Source: Rhodobacteraceae bacterium CG17_big_fil_post_rev_8_21_14_2_50_63_15
Lineage (GTDB): Bacteria; Pseudomonadota; Alphaproteobacteria; Rhodobacterales; Rhodobacteraceae
Length of the DNA stretch: 64,000 nt
Direction: 5' to 3'
Assembly: GCA_002783205.1 (NCBI GenBank)
Contig: PFEY01000050.1
Coordinates: forward strand, 28,918-92,917
The translations under genes were made by a program, and so were the position numbers. Under the pieces are notes generated by a model that was not told where the DNA came from, searched no databases, and saw only the letters and a list, made by a program, of their open reading frames with translations. Shown here in pieces: positions 1-7,969 of this stretch (its first letter is position 1; the number at the start of each line of letters is the position of its first letter).

Positions 1-2
1 AG

Positions 3-230
3 CCGCGCAAGATCGTGGATATCTTCGGAAACCGGATCGACGACCTCGACGCCTGGCAGGCTGAGCAGGAGCGCGAAATCCAGGCGCGAAAACGGATGCA
101 CAAGGCACCGGATGATAACCTCCAAAAATCCGGCATCGGCGAAATTGGTCCTGTCGGCAAATCTGTCATCAACCGCGTGATTGCACGCCCCACGCCGGTG
201 CGCCATCTGGCACCGTCATCCCATTCCTGA
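3..230 (+). CDS. C-terminal fragment of an unidentified protein, truncated by the window edge
   Basis: Frame 3 is open from the window edge to TGA at 228-230; no recognisable domain. Confidence 0.4.
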   Translation, partial: PRKIVDIFGNRIDDLDAWQAEQEREIQARKRMHKAPDDNLQKSGIGEIGPVGKSVINRVIARPTPVRHLAPSSHS

Positions 231-246
231 TTCTGAGGAGACCCTG

Positions 247-1362
247 ATGAGATTCATTCGTGAAATCATAAGTGAAAAACGCCGCACGGCCCCGGTGGAG
301 ACGTCACACCCGGTGTGGCCCGACGCCGGTGCGCCGGATGCCGCTGCGCCGGATGCCGAGGCGTGGGACGATGCCCAAAGGCGGTCAGCGGATCCGCTGC
401 CGCTTGATGCCTATGAGTTGGCACGTCATGCGAGGGTGGAGGACGCGGAACTCGATGCCGAGGTTGCCTTCGGTGATGGCGCTGATGAGCAGGTCGAGGA
501 GGAGACCTCCGATCTGTTGCCCTATCCGGCCGATGATGAGGCCGATGCGCAAGAGGAGGACTTCCATCTTGCGCTGCATCAGGACGACCGCAGCTTTGAT
601 GACACCGAAATGACCGACGGCGAGAGCGACGAGGATGATCTCGCGGACCTCGACATCTTTGCGCAAAGCGACATCAGGCAGATCCCCGATCCTTTCGAGC
701 GGCTCGCGAAAGAGCGGGTGCAGCAAAGCGTGGCGGCCGTGGCATCCCCCCCGTTTGATGGCGACGGCAACGCCGATCCCGATGTCTCGCTTGTGGTGGT
801 CGGGCGGGCGCCGCAGGCGGACACCTCGGCACATCGCATGACCGAGGAACCGTTGTCGGTTGCCGTTCCGGCCCCTGCTGCGGGTCGCGGATCGAACCGG
901 TCCGGCCGCGTCAAGACGCGGCTCCTGGGATTCTCGACAGGCTCTCTGGAACAGACCGACATGTTCGCCGAGAGCCGGAGCGTCACCGCCGATCCATTCC
1001 CGGTCGGCTGGTTGGTGGTGGTGTCCGAACTTGGCCGCGGCGCCTCGTTTGCCCTTCAGGACGGCGTGTCAAAGGTTGGCCGGGGCACGGATCAGACCGT
1101 GTGTCTGAATTTCGGCGACAACAGCATCTCGCGCGATAATCATCTCTCGATCGCCTACGATTCAGAGCAGAACAAGTTCTTTATCGGACATAGCGGCAAG
1201 TCGAACCTGGTTCGCCTGAACAACAAGCCGCTTCTGAGCACGGAGGAGTTGATCTCGCGGGATCAGATCCGGCTTGGCGAGACGACACTCCGGTTCATCG
1301 CGCTCTGTGAGAACGATTTCACGTGGCACGCGCCAGACGAAAAAGCCAGGAAGCATGGCTGA
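247..1362 (+). CDS. FHA-domain protein with a long acidic, low-complexity N-terminal region
   Basis: C-terminal GWLVVVSELGRGASFALQDGVSKVGRGTDQ...SISRDNHLSIAYD...LVRLNNKPL...DQIRLGETTLRFI matches the FHA fold pattern (GR, SRxH, variable N, L/G strand). Start taken as ATG 247. Confidence 0.85.
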   Translation: MRFIREIISEKRRTAPVETSHPVWPDAGAPDAAAPDAEAWDDAQRRSADPLPLDAYELARHARVEDAELDAEVAFGDGADEQVEEETSDLLPYPADDEADAQEEDFHLALHQDDRSFDDTEMTDGESDEDDLADLDIFAQSDIRQIPDPFERLAKERVQQSVAAVASPPFDGDGNADPDVSLVVVGRAPQADTSAHRMTEEPLSVAVPAPAAGRGSNRSGRVKTRLLGFSTGSLEQTDMFAESRSVTADPFPVGWLVVVSELGRGASFALQDGVSKVGRGTDQTVCLNFGDNSISRDNHLSIAYDSEQNKFFIGHSGKSNLVRLNNKPLLSTEELISRDQIRLGETTLRFIALCENDFTWHAPDEKARKHG

Positions 1363-2290
1363 GACGGCCAAATACGTCTATGATGCGGCCTCCGCGATCA
1401 TCCGGGGGCGGCGCGAGTATCAGGAGGATGCGCTGGCCGTGGATTTCCCGGCTGGCGCAGGGCTCGGTTTCGTCGTTCTGGCTGACGGTATGGGCGGACA
1501 TTCGTCCGGCGATGTCGCAAGCATGATCGTCGTGACGGAAGTCTTCAGCGAGTTGAAGCTGCGTGCCAATGACGCCGCGCAACTGGAATCCGAAATCGGC
1601 CTGATTCTGCATTCCGCTGTGACCTGTGCCAATGACTGCGTTGGCCGGATGGCCGACGACAGGCCTCAGATGCGGGGCATGGGCGCAACGCTTGTCGCGC
1701 CAATCGTGATCGACAATCGGCTCTACTGGATTTCGGTCGGCGATTCCCCGCTCTACATGTTTCGCGGCAATCGCCTGTTCCGGCTGAACGAGGAGCATTC
1801 CGTCGAAAGCCGGATGAAGCGCCTCGTCGATAGAGGCGAAATGGCGCGAGAGGCGGCGGAGGCGCATCCGGATCGGGGCTGTCTGACATCGGTGCTGATT
1901 GGCGGAGACATTCCCGAAATCGACTGTCGCGATACGCCGATCGAATTGAGACACAACGACATCCTGATTGCTGCCAGCGATGGGCTTCAGTTCCTCAGCG
2001 ATCAGGAAATTGCCCTTATTGTCCACGACGCCCGCGCCCTGCCAAGCGCCGAGATCAGCGCCAGACTGATCAAGCGGATTACCGATCTGAATGATCCCGA
2101 GCAGGACAATGTCTCGCTTTGCGTTCTCAAGGTGCAGGAAAATCAGAGGCTTGACCGGCCCGCCGATGTCAGCCACGCGCCCACGCCTGTCGCAGAGGTG
2201 GACACGACCCGGATGGCGATGCTTTCGCGGATGAATGGAACCACAAGGATCTGGACCAGAAACTGTTTTCAGGGACGTGACCGGCAATGA
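1355..2290 (+). CDS. PP2C-family Ser/Thr protein phosphatase
   Basis: GRREYQEDALAV, LADGMGGHSSGDVAS, GMGATLV, VGDSPLYMFR, ASDGLQFLSDQEI and DPEQDNVSLCVL are PP2C motifs. Overlaps the FHA gene end by 8 nt. Confidence 0.92.
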   Translation: MAETAKYVYDAASAIIRGRREYQEDALAVDFPAGAGLGFVVLADGMGGHSSGDVASMIVVTEVFSELKLRANDAAQLESEIGLILHSAVTCANDCVGRMADDRPQMRGMGATLVAPIVIDNRLYWISVGDSPLYMFRGNRLFRLNEEHSVESRMKRLVDRGEMAREAAEAHPDRGCLTSVLIGGDIPEIDCRDTPIELRHNDILIAASDGLQFLSDQEIALIVHDARALPSAEISARLIKRITDLNDPEQDNVSLCVLKVQENQRLDRPADVSHAPTPVAEVDTTRMAMLSRMNGTTRIWTRNCFQGRDRQ

Positions 2291-3543
2291 GTTTGCCCGA
2301 TTTCAAGGATACGACGGAGCGTCTCCAGCTTGCGCTGAACGACGACATGGTGCCGCACGCCTTTCTCAAGGCGGGCAGGGATCTGCTCGCGCATTTGACG
2401 AGACCGACGCAGATTGCGGTTCTGGGCTTTGCCGGTGTCGGCAAGACGAGTGTGCTCAACATGATCCTTCGCGACGCCGTCATGCCGGATCTCGGGGCGG
2501 TGCCGATCATCGAACTGGTCCACGGCGAGCATGTCCGGGTGACGTATGAGCCGTTGACCGCCCCTGCCGAGCGCCGGGACGGTCTCGCGTCCCGCGAGAC
2601 TATGCCGCTGCGAACGTTCCGCGTCATTCAGGAGTTGCCCCTGCCGCAACTGGAGAGGTGCAACCTGATCGAGGTCAACATTCCAGAGGATGCCGGGCAG
2701 CAGACGGATCTTCTCGACTGGGTGACGCAGAAGGCAAATGTCGCGATCTGGTGCGCGGAGACTTTTGACGACCACGACAGCAAGATCTGGTCCACGGTGC
2801 CGGATCGGCTGAAGGATCACAGCTTTCTTGCGCTCACCAAGGCGGATCGGCTTCAGATGAAGGGGCTGCTTGCCGATCAGGTCTCTCGCTTCGAGAGCCA
2901 GTTCGCGGACGAGTTTCTTTGCCTCTATCCGGTGGCAACCAAACAGGCGATGGCCGCATGTGCGTCTGGAACCGTCACACGGGCCCGGCTCTGGCAGGAA
3001 AGTGGCGGCAAGGCCCTGGCGGACGGCGTTGCGCGCGAGATCGCAACCGGCAAGCTTGCCGACAGGGATCATGCGGACGTGCTGCTCAGCCGGATCGGTC
3101 TTGCGGGCACGCCGCGCGCGCGCCGCGTGGCGCCGGAGGAGGTCGCGCCTCTGGAAACAGCCGAGGAGGCACCCGAAAAATCCGCGGCGCAGCCGGTCAT
3201 GCCGCCTGCGATCGCGCAGATGGGGCGCGAGGAGGCCGTCGAGATGGCGCTGTCGCTTCTTCAAGGCTGCGCCAATGAGATGTGCGCCGGGGGCACCGAC
3301 CAGAAGGCGGCGGCGCCGGACCGGATTCTTGCGCAATGCGCGCAGACCGCGCAGGCGCTGGCCACCTTGTTGATGGACACGCAGCCGGACGATCCCGAAA
3401 TCGATGCCCTTCGTGAGGATGCTCTGGAGAGCGAGCAGGTGATCATGCTGCTCGTGCTCGAGCGTAACGAGACGGCCGCCAGCGATGCGATCTCGGTTCT
3501 GCTCCAGTTGAAAAAGGAAATTGCGGTATTGGGTGCGCAATGA
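2287..3543 (+). CDS. P-loop GTPase-like protein 1
   Basis: Walker A GFAGVGKTS and G4 TKAD; canonical DxxG not evident. ATGA overlap with PP2C gene. Confidence 0.75.
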   Translation: MSLPDFKDTTERLQLALNDDMVPHAFLKAGRDLLAHLTRPTQIAVLGFAGVGKTSVLNMILRDAVMPDLGAVPIIELVHGEHVRVTYEPLTAPAERRDGLASRETMPLRTFRVIQELPLPQLERCNLIEVNIPEDAGQQTDLLDWVTQKANVAIWCAETFDDHDSKIWSTVPDRLKDHSFLALTKADRLQMKGLLADQVSRFESQFADEFLCLYPVATKQAMAACASGTVTRARLWQESGGKALADGVAREIATGKLADRDHADVLLSRIGLAGTPRARRVAPEEVAPLETAEEAPEKSAAQPVMPPAIAQMGREEAVEMALSLLQGCANEMCAGGTDQKAAAPDRILAQCAQTAQALATLLMDTQPDDPEIDALREDALESEQVIMLLVLERNETAASDAISVLLQLKKEIAVLGAQ

Positions 3544-5777
3544 AACATGAACTTCGAGACCGGCCTCTGATGCTGGATGAATTTCTCTTCTCCTTCGGAC
3601 CGGGAGAGCTTGCCGACACCGCCGCGCGGGACCATTCCGAGCCTTGTGGCGTGATGATGGACGCGCCACGCAGACAGGCAGAGCAGAGGGAAGTCGAGGT
3701 TCCGATGGCGGCGGCGGAACCGGCTGCGTTCTTCGCGCAGCCGGATTATCTCAATGCCGGTCTGGAGCCGCTGCGTGAGTTTGCGGATCGCGTCCGGCGC
3801 GTGGACAGCGCGCTTCAGGCGCTCCAGGATCTCTCGGGCGATGCCGCTGGGCGTGCCGTGACCCGCCTGATCCGTGACCTGAATGATTTCGAACCCGCCG
3901 TGACGTTTCTGGGGCAGGTCAAGGCGGGCAAGACATCTTTGGTGAACGCGATGGCGGGCTGGTCCGATCTCTTGCCCTCGGATGTGAACCCGTGGACCTC
4001 TGTTGTCACCTCCCTGCATCTCGCGCCCGGCGCGGAACGCCGGGAAACCGGGGCGCGATTCCAGTTCATGGAGGAGGAGGAATGGGACCGGCTGGTGCAC
4101 AAGGGCGGACGGTTGGGGGAACTTGCCAATCGTGCGGGCGCGAGCGGAGAGCTGGAAACGATCAGGCAACAGATCGAGATGCTGCGCGAGAAGTCCCGCA
4201 AGCGGCTGGGCAACAAGTTCGAGATGCTGCTGGGCCAGGAGCATGAATACGGCTATTTCGACAAGAACCTGCTGGAGCGCTACATCTGCATTGGCGATGA
4301 TTTCTTTGATGACAATCCCGTCGAGGACACCGCCAATCAGGGGCGCTTTGCGGATATAACGCGCTCGGCCGATCTCTACCTCAACAGCAACCGCACCCCG
4401 TTTCGCATGTGCCTGCGCGATACGCCGGGCATCAACGATACCTTCATGATGCGCGAACAGGTGACGATCAACGCCGTGCGGTCAAGCCGCATCTGCGTTG
4501 TCGTGTTATCCGCCCAACAGGCTCTGACATCGATCGACATGGCCTTGATCCGGATGATCTCGAACCTGAAGGCGAGGGATGTCGTGATTTTCGTGAACCG
4601 GATCGACGAATTGCACGACCCCGCAGAGCAGATCCCGGAAATCGAGGCGAGCCTGCGCCGGGTGCTGGCCGATCACAAGGGTCCGGAAAATGCCGAGGTC
4701 GTTTTTGGAAGCGCCTATTGGGCCAACATGGTCCTGACCGAAAATCTCGAGCGGATGCACGCTGCGAGCACCGAAACACTGATGAAGTATGCCGAGCAGG
4801 CACTGGATGCCTCGACATTCGATCAGTCGCCTGCGGCGATGATCTGGCACCTGTCCGGCCTGCCCAAACTGAATCGGATCATATCCGAGCGGATTGTCAC
4901 GAAACTGGGCGACCCCACGCTGACCAAGATCGCAAGCTCTGCGGTCACGATCGCGAGCGGGCAGGAGGCCGCCAACAAGGTGCGCGTCCAAGGCCATGAG
5001 CACGCGGGATCGATCAGCATGTATGCGGTCCGAAGCGAGCTTGATGCGCTCGCGCAGCGGCACAGGGCCACTCTGGGGCAGACCATTGATGACATCATCG
5101 CGGCCTATCAGTCCCGCGCAGATCGGGCCCATGCAAACTTTGTCGAACGGGCGACCCATTCCCTGATCACCCATCTTGAAACCAACGGCGAGGGTCAGGT
5201 CTGGTCTTACAGCCCGACCGGGCTCCGGATGTTGCTCAAGTCGGCCTATGTTCTGTTCGCGACCCGTGTGCAAGCTGCGGCCAAAAGCCAATATGCACTG
5301 GCCGTCGAGGACATTGCCGAGCTTTATTTCAAGGCGTTTGGCAAGGCTGTCGAGGGAATCGAGCTGACGGTTCCAGAGGTGCAGGACCTTCCGGCCCCGG
5401 TCAGCATCGCACAGACCATCGCTCTGGATTTCAAGGATGGGTGGTGGGTGTCCTGGTGGCGGCGGACACGCGGCTACAAGGCTTTTGCCAAGCAGTTCAA
5501 CGCGCTCGTGCTGGCGGAAACGCAGGATTTCATGAGCCAGCTCAAGACCGTCCAGACGGCGCAGATCCGCGCCCAGATGATGGAGACGCTGAACGCATTT
5601 CTCGAGCAGAACCGCGACATCATGATCGAGATCGGCAGCGGCCATGAGGATACCGAAGGGCTGCAACGCAAGTGCCTGAGGTCAGAGCCGCATGACCGCC
5701 AGGACAGGATCGAGACCATCATTGCCGGGTTGAAATCCCAGTGCCGGCAAATCGGGACGGAGGGGCCAGAGGCATGA
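3540..5777 (+). CDS. Dynamin-family GTPase (745 aa)
   Basis: G1 GQVKAGKTSLVNA, G3 DTPGIND, G4 NRID, long helical C-terminus. ATGA overlap with previous gene. Confidence 0.85.
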   Translation: MKHELRDRPLMLDEFLFSFGPGELADTAARDHSEPCGVMMDAPRRQAEQREVEVPMAAAEPAAFFAQPDYLNAGLEPLREFADRVRRVDSALQALQDLSGDAAGRAVTRLIRDLNDFEPAVTFLGQVKAGKTSLVNAMAGWSDLLPSDVNPWTSVVTSLHLAPGAERRETGARFQFMEEEEWDRLVHKGGRLGELANRAGASGELETIRQQIEMLREKSRKRLGNKFEMLLGQEHEYGYFDKNLLERYICIGDDFFDDNPVEDTANQGRFADITRSADLYLNSNRTPFRMCLRDTPGINDTFMMREQVTINAVRSSRICVVVLSAQQALTSIDMALIRMISNLKARDVVIFVNRIDELHDPAEQIPEIEASLRRVLADHKGPENAEVVFGSAYWANMVLTENLERMHAASTETLMKYAEQALDASTFDQSPAAMIWHLSGLPKLNRIISERIVTKLGDPTLTKIASSAVTIASGQEAANKVRVQGHEHAGSISMYAVRSELDALAQRHRATLGQTIDDIIAAYQSRADRAHANFVERATHSLITHLETNGEGQVWSYSPTGLRMLLKSAYVLFATRVQAAAKSQYALAVEDIAELYFKAFGKAVEGIELTVPEVQDLPAPVSIAQTIALDFKDGWWVSWWRRTRGYKAFAKQFNALVLAETQDFMSQLKTVQTAQIRAQMMETLNAFLEQNRDIMIEIGSGHEDTEGLQRKCLRSEPHDRQDRIETIIAGLKSQCRQIGTEGPEA

Positions 5778-6700
5778 CCGAAGAACACCTGATCCACCTC
5801 GCGCCGCAGGGCGCCATTCGCAAGCCGCGCCTCGTGCTGATGGGCGAGTTCAGCGCCGGAAAGAGCACGCTTTCGAACATCCTGCTGGGCAGCAATCCGT
5901 TGCCGATGCGGGTGACGGCAACGCGCCTTCCGCCCGTCATCATCTCCCATGGCCGACCCGCAGCCTTCAGCATCGGCAAGGACGGCGTCAGGGGTGAGAT
6001 CACGCTTGATGCTCTCGAGACGGTTTTGCTGAGCGAGACCCGGTCGATCGAACTGTTCATGGACTCGGAAGTCCTTGAGCTTTGCGACATCGTTGACATG
6101 CCGGGCATTTCGGACCCGGACATGCCGCTGGATGTCTGGCAGGACGTGGTCGGCAAGGGCGATCTCGTGATCTGGTGCACCCATGCAACCCAGGCCTGGC
6201 GCAAGTCTGAAGCGGCGATCTGGGAGAGCTTGCGCAAGGAGACTTCGGGCCGCAACCTGCTTTTGGTCACACAGTTCGACAAGTTGCGAACCCCGCGCGA
6301 TCAGGACAGGGTTCTCAAACGGGTCGCGCGCGAGACCGAAGGGCTGTTTGAAAGTATCTATCCGGTCTCGCTTCTGATGGCGCTGGAGGCCGGAGAGGAT
6401 TTCGAGATCTGGAAGCAAAGTGGTGCGGCGGACTTTATCGAGCACGTTGTCGGCAGTCTCATCGAGCTTGGACAAGGCCACGCGGAGGTTCCCGATCCGG
6501 CATCGCCCGGCAGGGACGATCGCGCGAGGGTCGCCATCGCCGGATCGACGTCTCTTGACATGACCCGTGACGGCTTGGCACCGGAGGCGACGCTCTTGCC
6601 AAGCGACGGTGGCGTGCGGCCAAGGCGCGTTCGGCTGAATCCAGACGCCGGTTCGCGTCGAAACCCAGATCGCCGGACCGCAGCAAGCGGTGGATACTGA
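5774..6700 (+). CDS. Dynamin-like GTPase 3
   Basis: G1 GEFSAGKSTLSN, G3 DMPGISD, G4-like TQFD. ATGA overlap with previous gene; start taken at MTEEHLIHL. Confidence 0.82.
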   Translation: MTEEHLIHLAPQGAIRKPRLVLMGEFSAGKSTLSNILLGSNPLPMRVTATRLPPVIISHGRPAAFSIGKDGVRGEITLDALETVLLSETRSIELFMDSEVLELCDIVDMPGISDPDMPLDVWQDVVGKGDLVIWCTHATQAWRKSEAAIWESLRKETSGRNLLLVTQFDKLRTPRDQDRVLKRVARETEGLFESIYPVSLLMALEAGEDFEIWKQSGAADFIEHVVGSLIELGQGHAEVPDPASPGRDDRARVAIAGSTSLDMTRDGLAPEATLLPSDGGVRPRRVRLNPDAGSRRNPDRRTAASGGY

Positions 6701-6812
6701 CCATGACTGGCGAGACCGGTCCGGGCGTTCTCGCCGCATCGCGCGGGGGGGGGCACCCGGACGGGCCTTGCCAGGCAGGACAAAATCAAGGGGACGGCCG
6801 GAGGCTGTGATC

Positions 6813-7196
6813 ATGACAATCAAGGCGCAACTGGATCAACTTCGGGAGACCTCTTTCGGGTGCGTTCTAACCGCATTCGGAGATCTCTCCTCGGGTCTCA
6901 TCCTGCGGTCCAGTTCGGAGACGCCCGTTCCGCGCGAAGTTCTGGACGCCCTGTGTGACGACGCGACCCGCAGCCTTGCCGTTGCCAGCCGCCACACCCG
7001 ACCGGACGCGACAGCGGCCAGTGTCTATGGCACGTCAGTCGTTTCCTTCACGGCCCAGCGATCGCATGTGTTCGTCCGCCATGACCCGGAGGCGGGCGAT
7101 CTGATCTGTGCCGTCATCGAGAAGGCTCAGGCCATCGCTCCTGTCCTGCAATCGGCACGGGAAACGGCGGCAAGGATCGCGGAAGCCGGATCATGA
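6813..7196 (+). CDS. Small uncharacterised protein (127 aa), possibly roadblock/LC7-like
   Basis: Conserved operon position; FGCVLTAFGDLSSGLILRSSS...VLDALCDDATRSLAV loosely resembles roadblock domains. Confidence 0.5.
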   Translation: MTIKAQLDQLRETSFGCVLTAFGDLSSGLILRSSSETPVPREVLDALCDDATRSLAVASRHTRPDATAASVYGTSVVSFTAQRSHVFVRHDPEAGDLICAVIEKAQAIAPVLQSARETAARIAEAGS

Positions 7197-7969
7197 CACA
7201 AGTCGCGCTTTCGACTCCTTTGTCTGCGTCGGGTCCGGCCCGGCTGGACGGTTTGCTGCGCCGGTTTGCGACACCCGCTGGCCGTCTCGCGCGGAGGTCT
7301 GCAACGCTGCCGGACGATCCGCGGGCACGGCTCGACGCCTTGTTGCAGGAAATCGACGAAATCATGCTTCCGCGTCGGATCGAACTGCGGATCGATGGCA
7401 AGACGCTCGCGCATCTGTCTGCATATAGTCGTCGGCTCGCCAGCGTGGAAATCGTGGCGCGCCCCGGATCACGCCCGACAGGAGAGACGATCGCTTCGGA
7501 TTTCGCCGATCGCCTGCTGGAGATTGCCGCAACGCCCGGAACCCTCACATGCAGATCCGCGCGCCACCAGAACAGGCCGCGGGCAAATGACAGCACCTGC
7601 TCCGTGGGCGCGCTGAAAGCGGCCCTCGGATTCGACGTGCAGAGATCCGAGATCGTCCGTCTGACCGAGATCATGACGCCGATCGCGATTGCAAAACTCG
7701 ATTGGGTTGGTGATCCCGGTCAGGGCCAGTTCTCGGGAGAGGGGGCCTGGCGTCAGATGCTGGAACAGCACGCCCTGATATTCCTCGGTCGCGCTGGCCG
7801 CAAGACGTTCAACCGGCAGGCCGGGGCTGGACGGGCGGAAGGGATCGCGATTCCCTTGTCTGCGGAGACGATCATCGTCCTGGCCCGTTTGTCCGATCGT
7901 GGTCTCGCAGCGATCCTGCCCTATGAGGCCGGGCTCAAGGCGATCGCCTTCTGGCAGGCAGCCGGGTGA
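7193..7969 (+). CDS. Uncharacterised protein of the FHA/GTPase operon
   Basis: 258 aa ORF with ATGA overlap to the upstream gene; no recognisable domain. Confidence 0.6.
   Translation: MTQVALSTPLSASGPARLDGLLRRFATPAGRLARRSATLPDDPRARLDALLQEIDEIMLPRRIELRIDGKTLAHLSAYSRRLASVEIVARPGSRPTGETIASDFADRLLEIAATPGTLTCRSARHQNRPRANDSTCSVGALKAALGFDVQRSEIVRLTEIMTPIAIAKLDWVGDPGQGQFSGEGAWRQMLEQHALIFLGRAGRKTFNRQAGAGRAEGIAIPLSAETIIVLARLSDRGLAAILPYEAGLKAIAFWQAAG

Follow-up and report, generated by a model that had tools for sequence, protein, structure and literature searches.

What kind of system is encoded by seven tightly packed, same-strand genes at the left end of a 64,000-nucleotide stretch of a Rhodobacteraceae genome, among them genes for an FHA-domain protein, a PP2C-type phosphatase, and three P-loop GTPases? 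This stretch (hereafter, the window) comprises bases 28918-92917 of contig C106 (PFEY01000050.1) in the 3.34 Mb draft genome of Rhodobacteraceae bacterium CG17_big_fil_post_rev_8_21_14_2_50_63_15, and a first-pass annotation, made from the sequence alone, had proposed that the genes encode a phospho-switch acting on membrane-acting GTPases. Together with an eighth gene that codes for a Hanks-type Ser/Thr kinase, they form a real, conserved, and apparently undescribed system, and we see about an even chance that the operon encodes one phosphothreonine-controlled GTPase machine at the cytoplasmic membrane. The phospho-switch fits all the findings presented below, from which we infer it.

Layout and conservation of the operon

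The seven open reading frames (ORFs) were all confirmed on the + strand, with ATG start codons at 247, 1355, 2287, 3540, 5774, 6813, and 7193 and with TGA as the stop codon in each case. In this order, they encode an FHA-domain adaptor (FHA), the phosphatase (PP2C), a degenerate GTPase (GTP1), a large dynamin-like GTPase (DLP), a small GTPase of the Dynamin_N type (GTP3), and two further proteins, Sm6 and P7. The five overlapping junctions counted in the first-pass annotation are all there, namely, an 8-nt overlap between FHA and PP2C (1355-1362) and ATGA overlaps at 2287, 3540, 5774, and 7193; the sole junction without overlap is that between GTP3 and Sm6 (gap 6701-6812). The kinase, which had been guessed to lie beyond the left edge of the window, is indeed found in the contig sequence there, ending 16 nt upstream of the FHA start: the whole gene spans C106:27714-29147 on the + strand (window -1203..230), with the 3' end at 1..230. 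RefSeq annotates the eight genes singly, as serine/threonine-protein kinase, FHA domain-containing, PP2C, hypothetical, dynamin family, dynamin family, hypothetical, and hypothetical.

A GTDB genome scan with DLP provided 30 loci with flanks of at most 10 kb, which were fetched by query peptide patterns and thus are biased toward nearer relatives; all 30 come from Rhodobacterales. The order kinase-FHA-PP2C-GTP1-DLP-GTP3-Sm6-P7 is seen across these loci, save for cuts at contig ends (L033 lacks Sm6 and P7, and L043 lacks P7) and three variants, two with solute-binding-protein genes between the kinase and FHA (L042 and L049) and one with the kinase inverted downstream (L047). Such recurrence of an eight-gene order is far beyond chance. 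In a more neutral sample of 101 genera of the family, DLP or a relative is present in 26, with a patchy distribution. The FHA protein was detected in 18 of the 101 genera, 17 of which also have DLP (Fisher p 6e-12), and Sm6 in 20, all with DLP (Fisher p 3e-16); this co-occurrence holds where the operon is split or rearranged, too. The genes had been taken for one conserved system, with co-occurrence elsewhere as the test, and both gene order and co-occurrence bear this out. At the level of the order, 60 of 150 genomes carry DLP, all from one family, and samples of the class (289 genomes) and of the phylum (299 genomes) yielded no DLP at E <= 1e-20 outside that family.

The best evidence of a single function is that the set stays together despite shuffling. 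In Ruegeria (L074; L065 is alike), the order is DLP-GTP3-Sm6-P7-DLP2-GTPase-kinase-FHA-PP2C followed by two solute-binding proteins, where DLP2 is a DLP paralogue; in Leisingera sp. S132 (L075), two adjacent half-operons of opposite orientation consist of DLP-GTP3-Sm6-P7 and of kinase-two binding proteins-FHA-PP2C-GTP1, respectively. Over 28 loci, the eight families correlate in their pairwise protein distances (r 0.79-0.96), and for the six DLP pairs tested, none of 2000 permutations gave a correlation as high, a pattern that fits joint inheritance but also simple vertical descent.

Outside the family, matches to the FHA profile lead to five loci of other Alphaproteobacteria (L077-L081), where homologous FHA and PP2C genes, accompanied by a nearby kinase in four cases out of five, lie beside genes for MotA/ExbB-like, vWA, trypsin-FHA, and further FHA proteins; no dynamin or Roadblock genes were detected near FHA-PP2C in these loci. 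It is likely that Rhodobacteraceae combined an older phospho-signaling module with a dynamin/Roadblock module. The arrangement in L077-L081 is possibly another kinase-controlled envelope system.

The proteins of the operon

The first-pass annotation had listed three dynamin-like GTPases with divergent P-loops (GFAGVGKTS, GQVKAGKTS, and GEFSAGKST); the motifs are as written, and the dynamin assignment stands for two of the three. DLP (3540..5777, + strand) and GTP3 (5774..6700, + strand) score 47 and 41 bits, respectively, with the Pfam Dynamin_N model, above the cut-off of 27 bits, whereas GTP1 (2287..3543, + strand) scores 13 bits. DLP combines a Dynamin_N domain with invariant G1-G4 motifs and the long C-terminal part expected of a bacterial dynamin, and its profile matches the solved bacterial dynamins CjDLP1 (5owv, 2e-8) and Nostoc BDLP (2j68, 2e-7); judged by its sequence, it is a true bacterial dynamin-like protein. 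Near its C-terminus, an almost invariant WWxxWW motif, missing from the DLP2 paralogues, is a candidate membrane-contact site. DLP2 represents a second dynamin-like family that is paired with its own GTPase (L060, L061, L062, L065, L067, and L074), in some cases in tandem with DLP and in others at a separate site, accompanied by Sm6/P7-like genes of its own (L061).

GTP3, encoded next to DLP as its partner, also has conserved G1, G2, G3, and G4 motifs within a Dynamin_N domain but is a short protein; bacterial dynamins act mostly as operon-encoded pairs (PMC6104087). Long open frames in G058 and G051 had pointed to a DLP::GTP3 fusion, which was rejected: the frame in L064 is a wrong-frame read-through in high-GC sequence, and L069 has two separate ORFs with a 4-nt overlap. 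GTP1 is a paralogue of GTP3 (hhalign 99.9%) that keeps the G1 P-loop and the TxAD motif of G4 and has no conserved G3 (DxxG), which is retained as DLPG in the DLP2-associated homologue of L065. Given this loss, GTP1 appears to be a pseudo-GTPase with an active ancestor.

The two small proteins that had been left as unknowns can be assigned, firmly for Sm6 and through its C-terminal half for P7, only by structure prediction, because searches with sequence alone against Pfam and PDB profiles identified neither; in particular, no Pfam Roadblock family is matched by any of 24 Sm6 or 24 P7 members. The AlphaFold2 model of Sm6 (6813..7196, + strand; 127 aa) has a pLDDT of 89 and the topology alpha-beta2-alpha-beta3-alpha, and its top Foldseek matches in the PDB are Streptomyces Roadblock/LC7, Asgard Roadblocks, MglB, and LAMTOR subunits (TM about 0.5-0.8), with MglC also among the bacterial matches. 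Sm6 is, thus, firmly predicted to be a Roadblock/LC7 protein. The model of P7 (7193..7969, + strand; 258 aa; pLDDT about 80) aligns with p14/MP1 and MglB along some 110-120 columns at a probability near 1, and the C-terminal half follows the Roadblock order of helices and strands. With moderate confidence, this half is predicted to be Roadblock-like, and the entire protein is, perhaps, a tandem Roadblock/longin protein. We do not claim P7 as a duplicated Sm6: comparison of the two profiles showed no sequence relation.

The FHA adaptor (247..1362, + strand) falls below the cut-off of Pfam's FHA model, and the related YscD_cpl model matches it weakly (21 bits). The domain assignment of the first-pass annotation, which these models do not secure, stands on the phosphothreonine (pThr)-binding residues of the C-terminal domain (Arg279, Ser295, His299, Asn320, and Asn325), which are invariant in 36/36 homologues, with the unusual spacing SRxNH. 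The N-terminal 200 residues are acidic and unconserved, apart from the basic stretch RSGRVKTRLLGF, in which Thr224, some 30 residues ahead of the first strand of the FHA domain, is a threonine in 36/36 homologues. Of the five FHA proteins from other alphaproteobacterial families, four carry a T-x-h-h-G motif in a comparable position, one of them in three copies. GarA and OdhI are FHA proteins under PknG, the latter in the GlnH-GlnX-PknG-OdhI pathway of Corynebacterium (PMC9769921), whereas in type VI secretion systems (T6SS), Fha binds pThr14 of TssL (PMC3953482). By likeness to these proteins, Thr224 is a candidate switch phosphosite. The phosphatase (1355..2290, + strand) retains all five metal-binding aspartates (D23, D42, D128, D207, and D249) in 36/36 homologues.

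The kinase (Pkinase 3.2e-31) has all the catalytic motifs, with the glycine loop, K97, E133, HRD, and DFG conserved in 30-31/31 sequences. The homologues come in two forms. In Yoonia, Loktanella, Litoreibacter, Defluviimonas, and Gemmobacter, the kinases contain a hydrophobic segment and a large C-terminal part with sub-threshold PDZ matches, and probably are transmembrane proteins with this part in the periplasm; those of the window, Roseovarius, Seohaeicola, and Sinirhodobacter have no hydrophobic segment and, hence, probably are soluble. The loci with the two forms are the two sides of one branch in the DLP tree (support 100/99). Genes for periplasmic proteins (PstS-like/OmpA, LysM/solute-binding, PilJ, and rhodanese) lie near 11/19 loci with transmembrane kinases versus 0/12 with soluble ones (p 0.001), and receiver-domain regulators lie near 1/19 versus 6/12 (p 0.007), both p values ignoring phylogeny. 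In L044-L051 and L072, genes downstream of the operon repeatedly accompany the transmembrane form; their products are a secreted PilJ-domain protein and a fusion of a PstS-like phosphate-binding domain to OmpA.

Mechanism and alternative explanations

The eight genes travel together, and the kinase, the phosphatase, the FHA pocket, DLP, and GTP3 keep their active residues. We propose that an envelope or cell signal would reach the kinase, in the transmembrane-kinase branch via its own periplasmic domain and the neighboring binding proteins and, in the branch of the window, via the response-regulator/quorum-type neighbors. The kinase would phosphorylate the FHA adaptor at Thr224, or partner proteins; the FHA domain would bind the pThr, in cis (as GarA/OdhI) or in trans (as T6SS Fha with pTssL), and this binding would assemble or release the GTPase complex. 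The Roadblock proteins and the pseudo-GTPase GTP1 might be a platform or a regulator of the catalytic DLP-GTP3 pair resembling a GTPase-activating protein, DLP oligomers would act on the inner membrane by tethering or remodeling it, most likely to maintain the membrane under stress, and PP2C would reset the switch. We put at somewhat below even the probability of the fuller account, namely, an undescribed system in which reversible Thr phosphorylation, read by the FHA protein, controls dynamin-type GTPases through Roadblock proteins, and which arose in Rhodobacteraceae from the older kinase-FHA-PP2C module and the dynamin/Roadblock module.

Bacterial dynamins are known mainly as operon pairs with unknown triggers, and the operon offers a complete candidate control circuit for one of them (kinase, eraser, reader, putative phosphosite, and Roadblock regulators). 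Carriers include genera of cultured marine bacteria (Leisingera and Ruegeria), so dynamin switching is directly testable. The gene set also suggests that Roadblock proteins may regulate dynamin-type GTPases, beyond those of the Ras type; if true, the operon would be a bacterial equivalent of the control of membrane traffic by phosphorylation and Roadblock proteins.

Several observations weigh against this mechanism. In Rhodobacter sp. CZR27 (L076) and in G003 (L060), dynamin pairs lack an adjacent kinase, FHA, and PP2C (the G003 chromosome has an FHA and an Sm6 gene at other places); the DLP-GTP3 module thus stands without these genes beside it, and phospho-control is not obligatory. We found no precedent for a Roadblock protein regulating dynamins. 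The P7 model is of moderate confidence, with a pLDDT of 79.7 for the best model and 67-72 for the others, Thr224 might serve for docking and not be phosphorylated, and WWxxWW is a candidate membrane-contact site by conservation alone. Finally, because the p values ignore phylogeny, the association of kinase type with neighboring genes is a two-clade pattern, not many independent events.

Defense against phages or membrane attack, in which infection or damage would activate the kinase and DLP would seal the membrane or delay lysis, as does DynA of B. subtilis, or abort the cell, appears rather unlikely to us. DynA of B. subtilis confers population-level phage resistance (PMC8844932), and among the PADLOC models, LeoA and LeoBC match DLP and PD-T4-6 matches the kinase. 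However, the LeoA match is weak (36 bits, over about one-fifth of the profile), the LeoBC match is very weak (23 bits, over about half), and the PD-T4-6 match is to the kinase domain; moreover, PD-T4-6 consists of a kinase only and KKP of two kinases and a phosphatase, whereas the operon combines a single kinase with seven other conserved genes. The patchy distribution (26/101 genera), the absence of DLP from some species of the window's own genus, and the presence of some operon copies on sequenced plasmids of Leisingera and Ruegeria are compatible with defense as well. Yet, in Yoonia and Loktanella, the locus has the same neighbors across species, which points to stable inheritance, no match turned up among 50,697 phage records, so that a phage-borne element was rejected, and the named neighbors are metabolic, sensory, or transport genes, no systematic scan of the flanks for defense islands having been made. 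The operon shares with the paired dynamins (Cj-DLP1/2, LeoABC, and DynA/DynB) a large DLP next to the gene of a second dynamin-type GTPase; unlike in those pairs, the partner GTPase is short, a third GTPase is degenerate, and the phospho-switch and Roadblock genes lie within the operon.

A role in cell polarity or surface attachment, where the Roadblock proteins would regulate the GTPases as MglB does MglA, and kinase and response-regulator input would set the pole, we consider unlikely. The Roadblock fold of Sm6, with MglB and MglC among the bacterial matches, the receiver-domain regulators that adjoin the operon in the window and in five related loci, along with a LuxI synthase in two, and the PilJ-domain proteins in other loci all point in this direction. 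As in MglA/MglB and other Roadblock-GTPase modules, Roadblock-fold proteins are encoded together with GTPases, but those of the operon are of the dynamin type or degenerate rather than Ras/MglA-like, no MglA homologue is encoded in the operon, no motility or pilus structural genes were recognized in the cluster, and Sm6 lacks a sequence-level Pfam Roadblock match.

Less is to be said for a nutrient-sensing platform, an improbable alternative in which the Roadblock proteins and GTPases would be a Ragulator-like membrane scaffold that relays a signal and remodels nothing. It agrees with the structural resemblance of Sm6 and P7 to LAMTOR/Ragulator subunits and with the binding-protein genes beside transmembrane kinases, which recall GlnH-GlnX-PknG-OdhI of Corynebacterium (PMC9769921). 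That pathway resembles the operon family in the Thr upstream of the FHA domain and in a kinase with periplasmic binding-protein input, the latter in the other kinase branch and not in that of the window; the partners of GarA/OdhI, however, are metabolic enzymes and those of the operon are GTPases, and the likeness is one by description, phosphorylation here being putative. Furthermore, DLP has the full length of a dynamin and invariance in all its G motifs, such proteins usually being membrane-acting, and the operon encodes no downstream metabolic target.

An orphan regulatory remnant of a T6SS locus is hardly credible: although the threonine-phosphorylation trio of T6SS consists of a kinase, an FHA protein, and a PP2C (PMC3953482), TssC/VipB was not found in the genome (94.5% complete; the E. 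coli control was positive), and none was recognized among the assigned genes of the 30 loci; the first-pass annotation had seen no T6SS structural gene in the window. The trio has its own partners in the 30 loci, and its neighbors in other Alphaproteobacteria are MotA/ExbB-like, vWA, and trypsin-FHA genes rather than those of a T6SS.

The phosphothreonine-controlled dynamin machine that we favor nonetheless resembles PpkA-PppA-Fha of T6SS in that a Ser/Thr kinase, a PP2C, and an FHA reader are encoded together and in the likely pThr-gated assembly of a membrane-associated machine; it differs in that this machine is dynamin/Roadblock, without T6SS genes, and in that the reader has its own invariant Thr ahead of a C-terminal FHA domain. 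TerY-P type triads feature a vWA protein beside a kinase and a PP2C; no vWA match was obtained in the operon, vWA being present in the distant loci L078 and L080. Compared with SrfABC, none of the three GTPases matches the SrfC-type Pfam family (Virul_fac); the search for SrfB gave no match, and no control genome matched either. No description of this eight-gene system was found among open-access papers on dynamins with FHA and PP2C, on dynamins with Roadblock proteins and MglB, or on dynamins of Roseobacter and Rhodobacter. The operon is a new combination of known kinds of parts.

Genes next to the operon

A scan of the operon for promoters and terminators gave a result no better than chance. 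Upstream of the kinase, on the same strand, lie the genes for a LuxI-type synthase, a receiver-domain protein, a HisKA kinase, and a second receiver-domain protein (C106:22442-27518, that is, L003:2443-7519). Neither receiver protein has a Pfam match in its C-terminal ~240 aa. The LuxI-histidine kinase-receiver group adjoins the operon in Seohaeicola, too (L026). Downstream, about 356 nt from the operon, there is a universal stress protein gene, and immediately before the LuxI gene, a tRNA-Thr(cgt) is encoded on the - strand (L003:2049-2124; C106:22048-22123).

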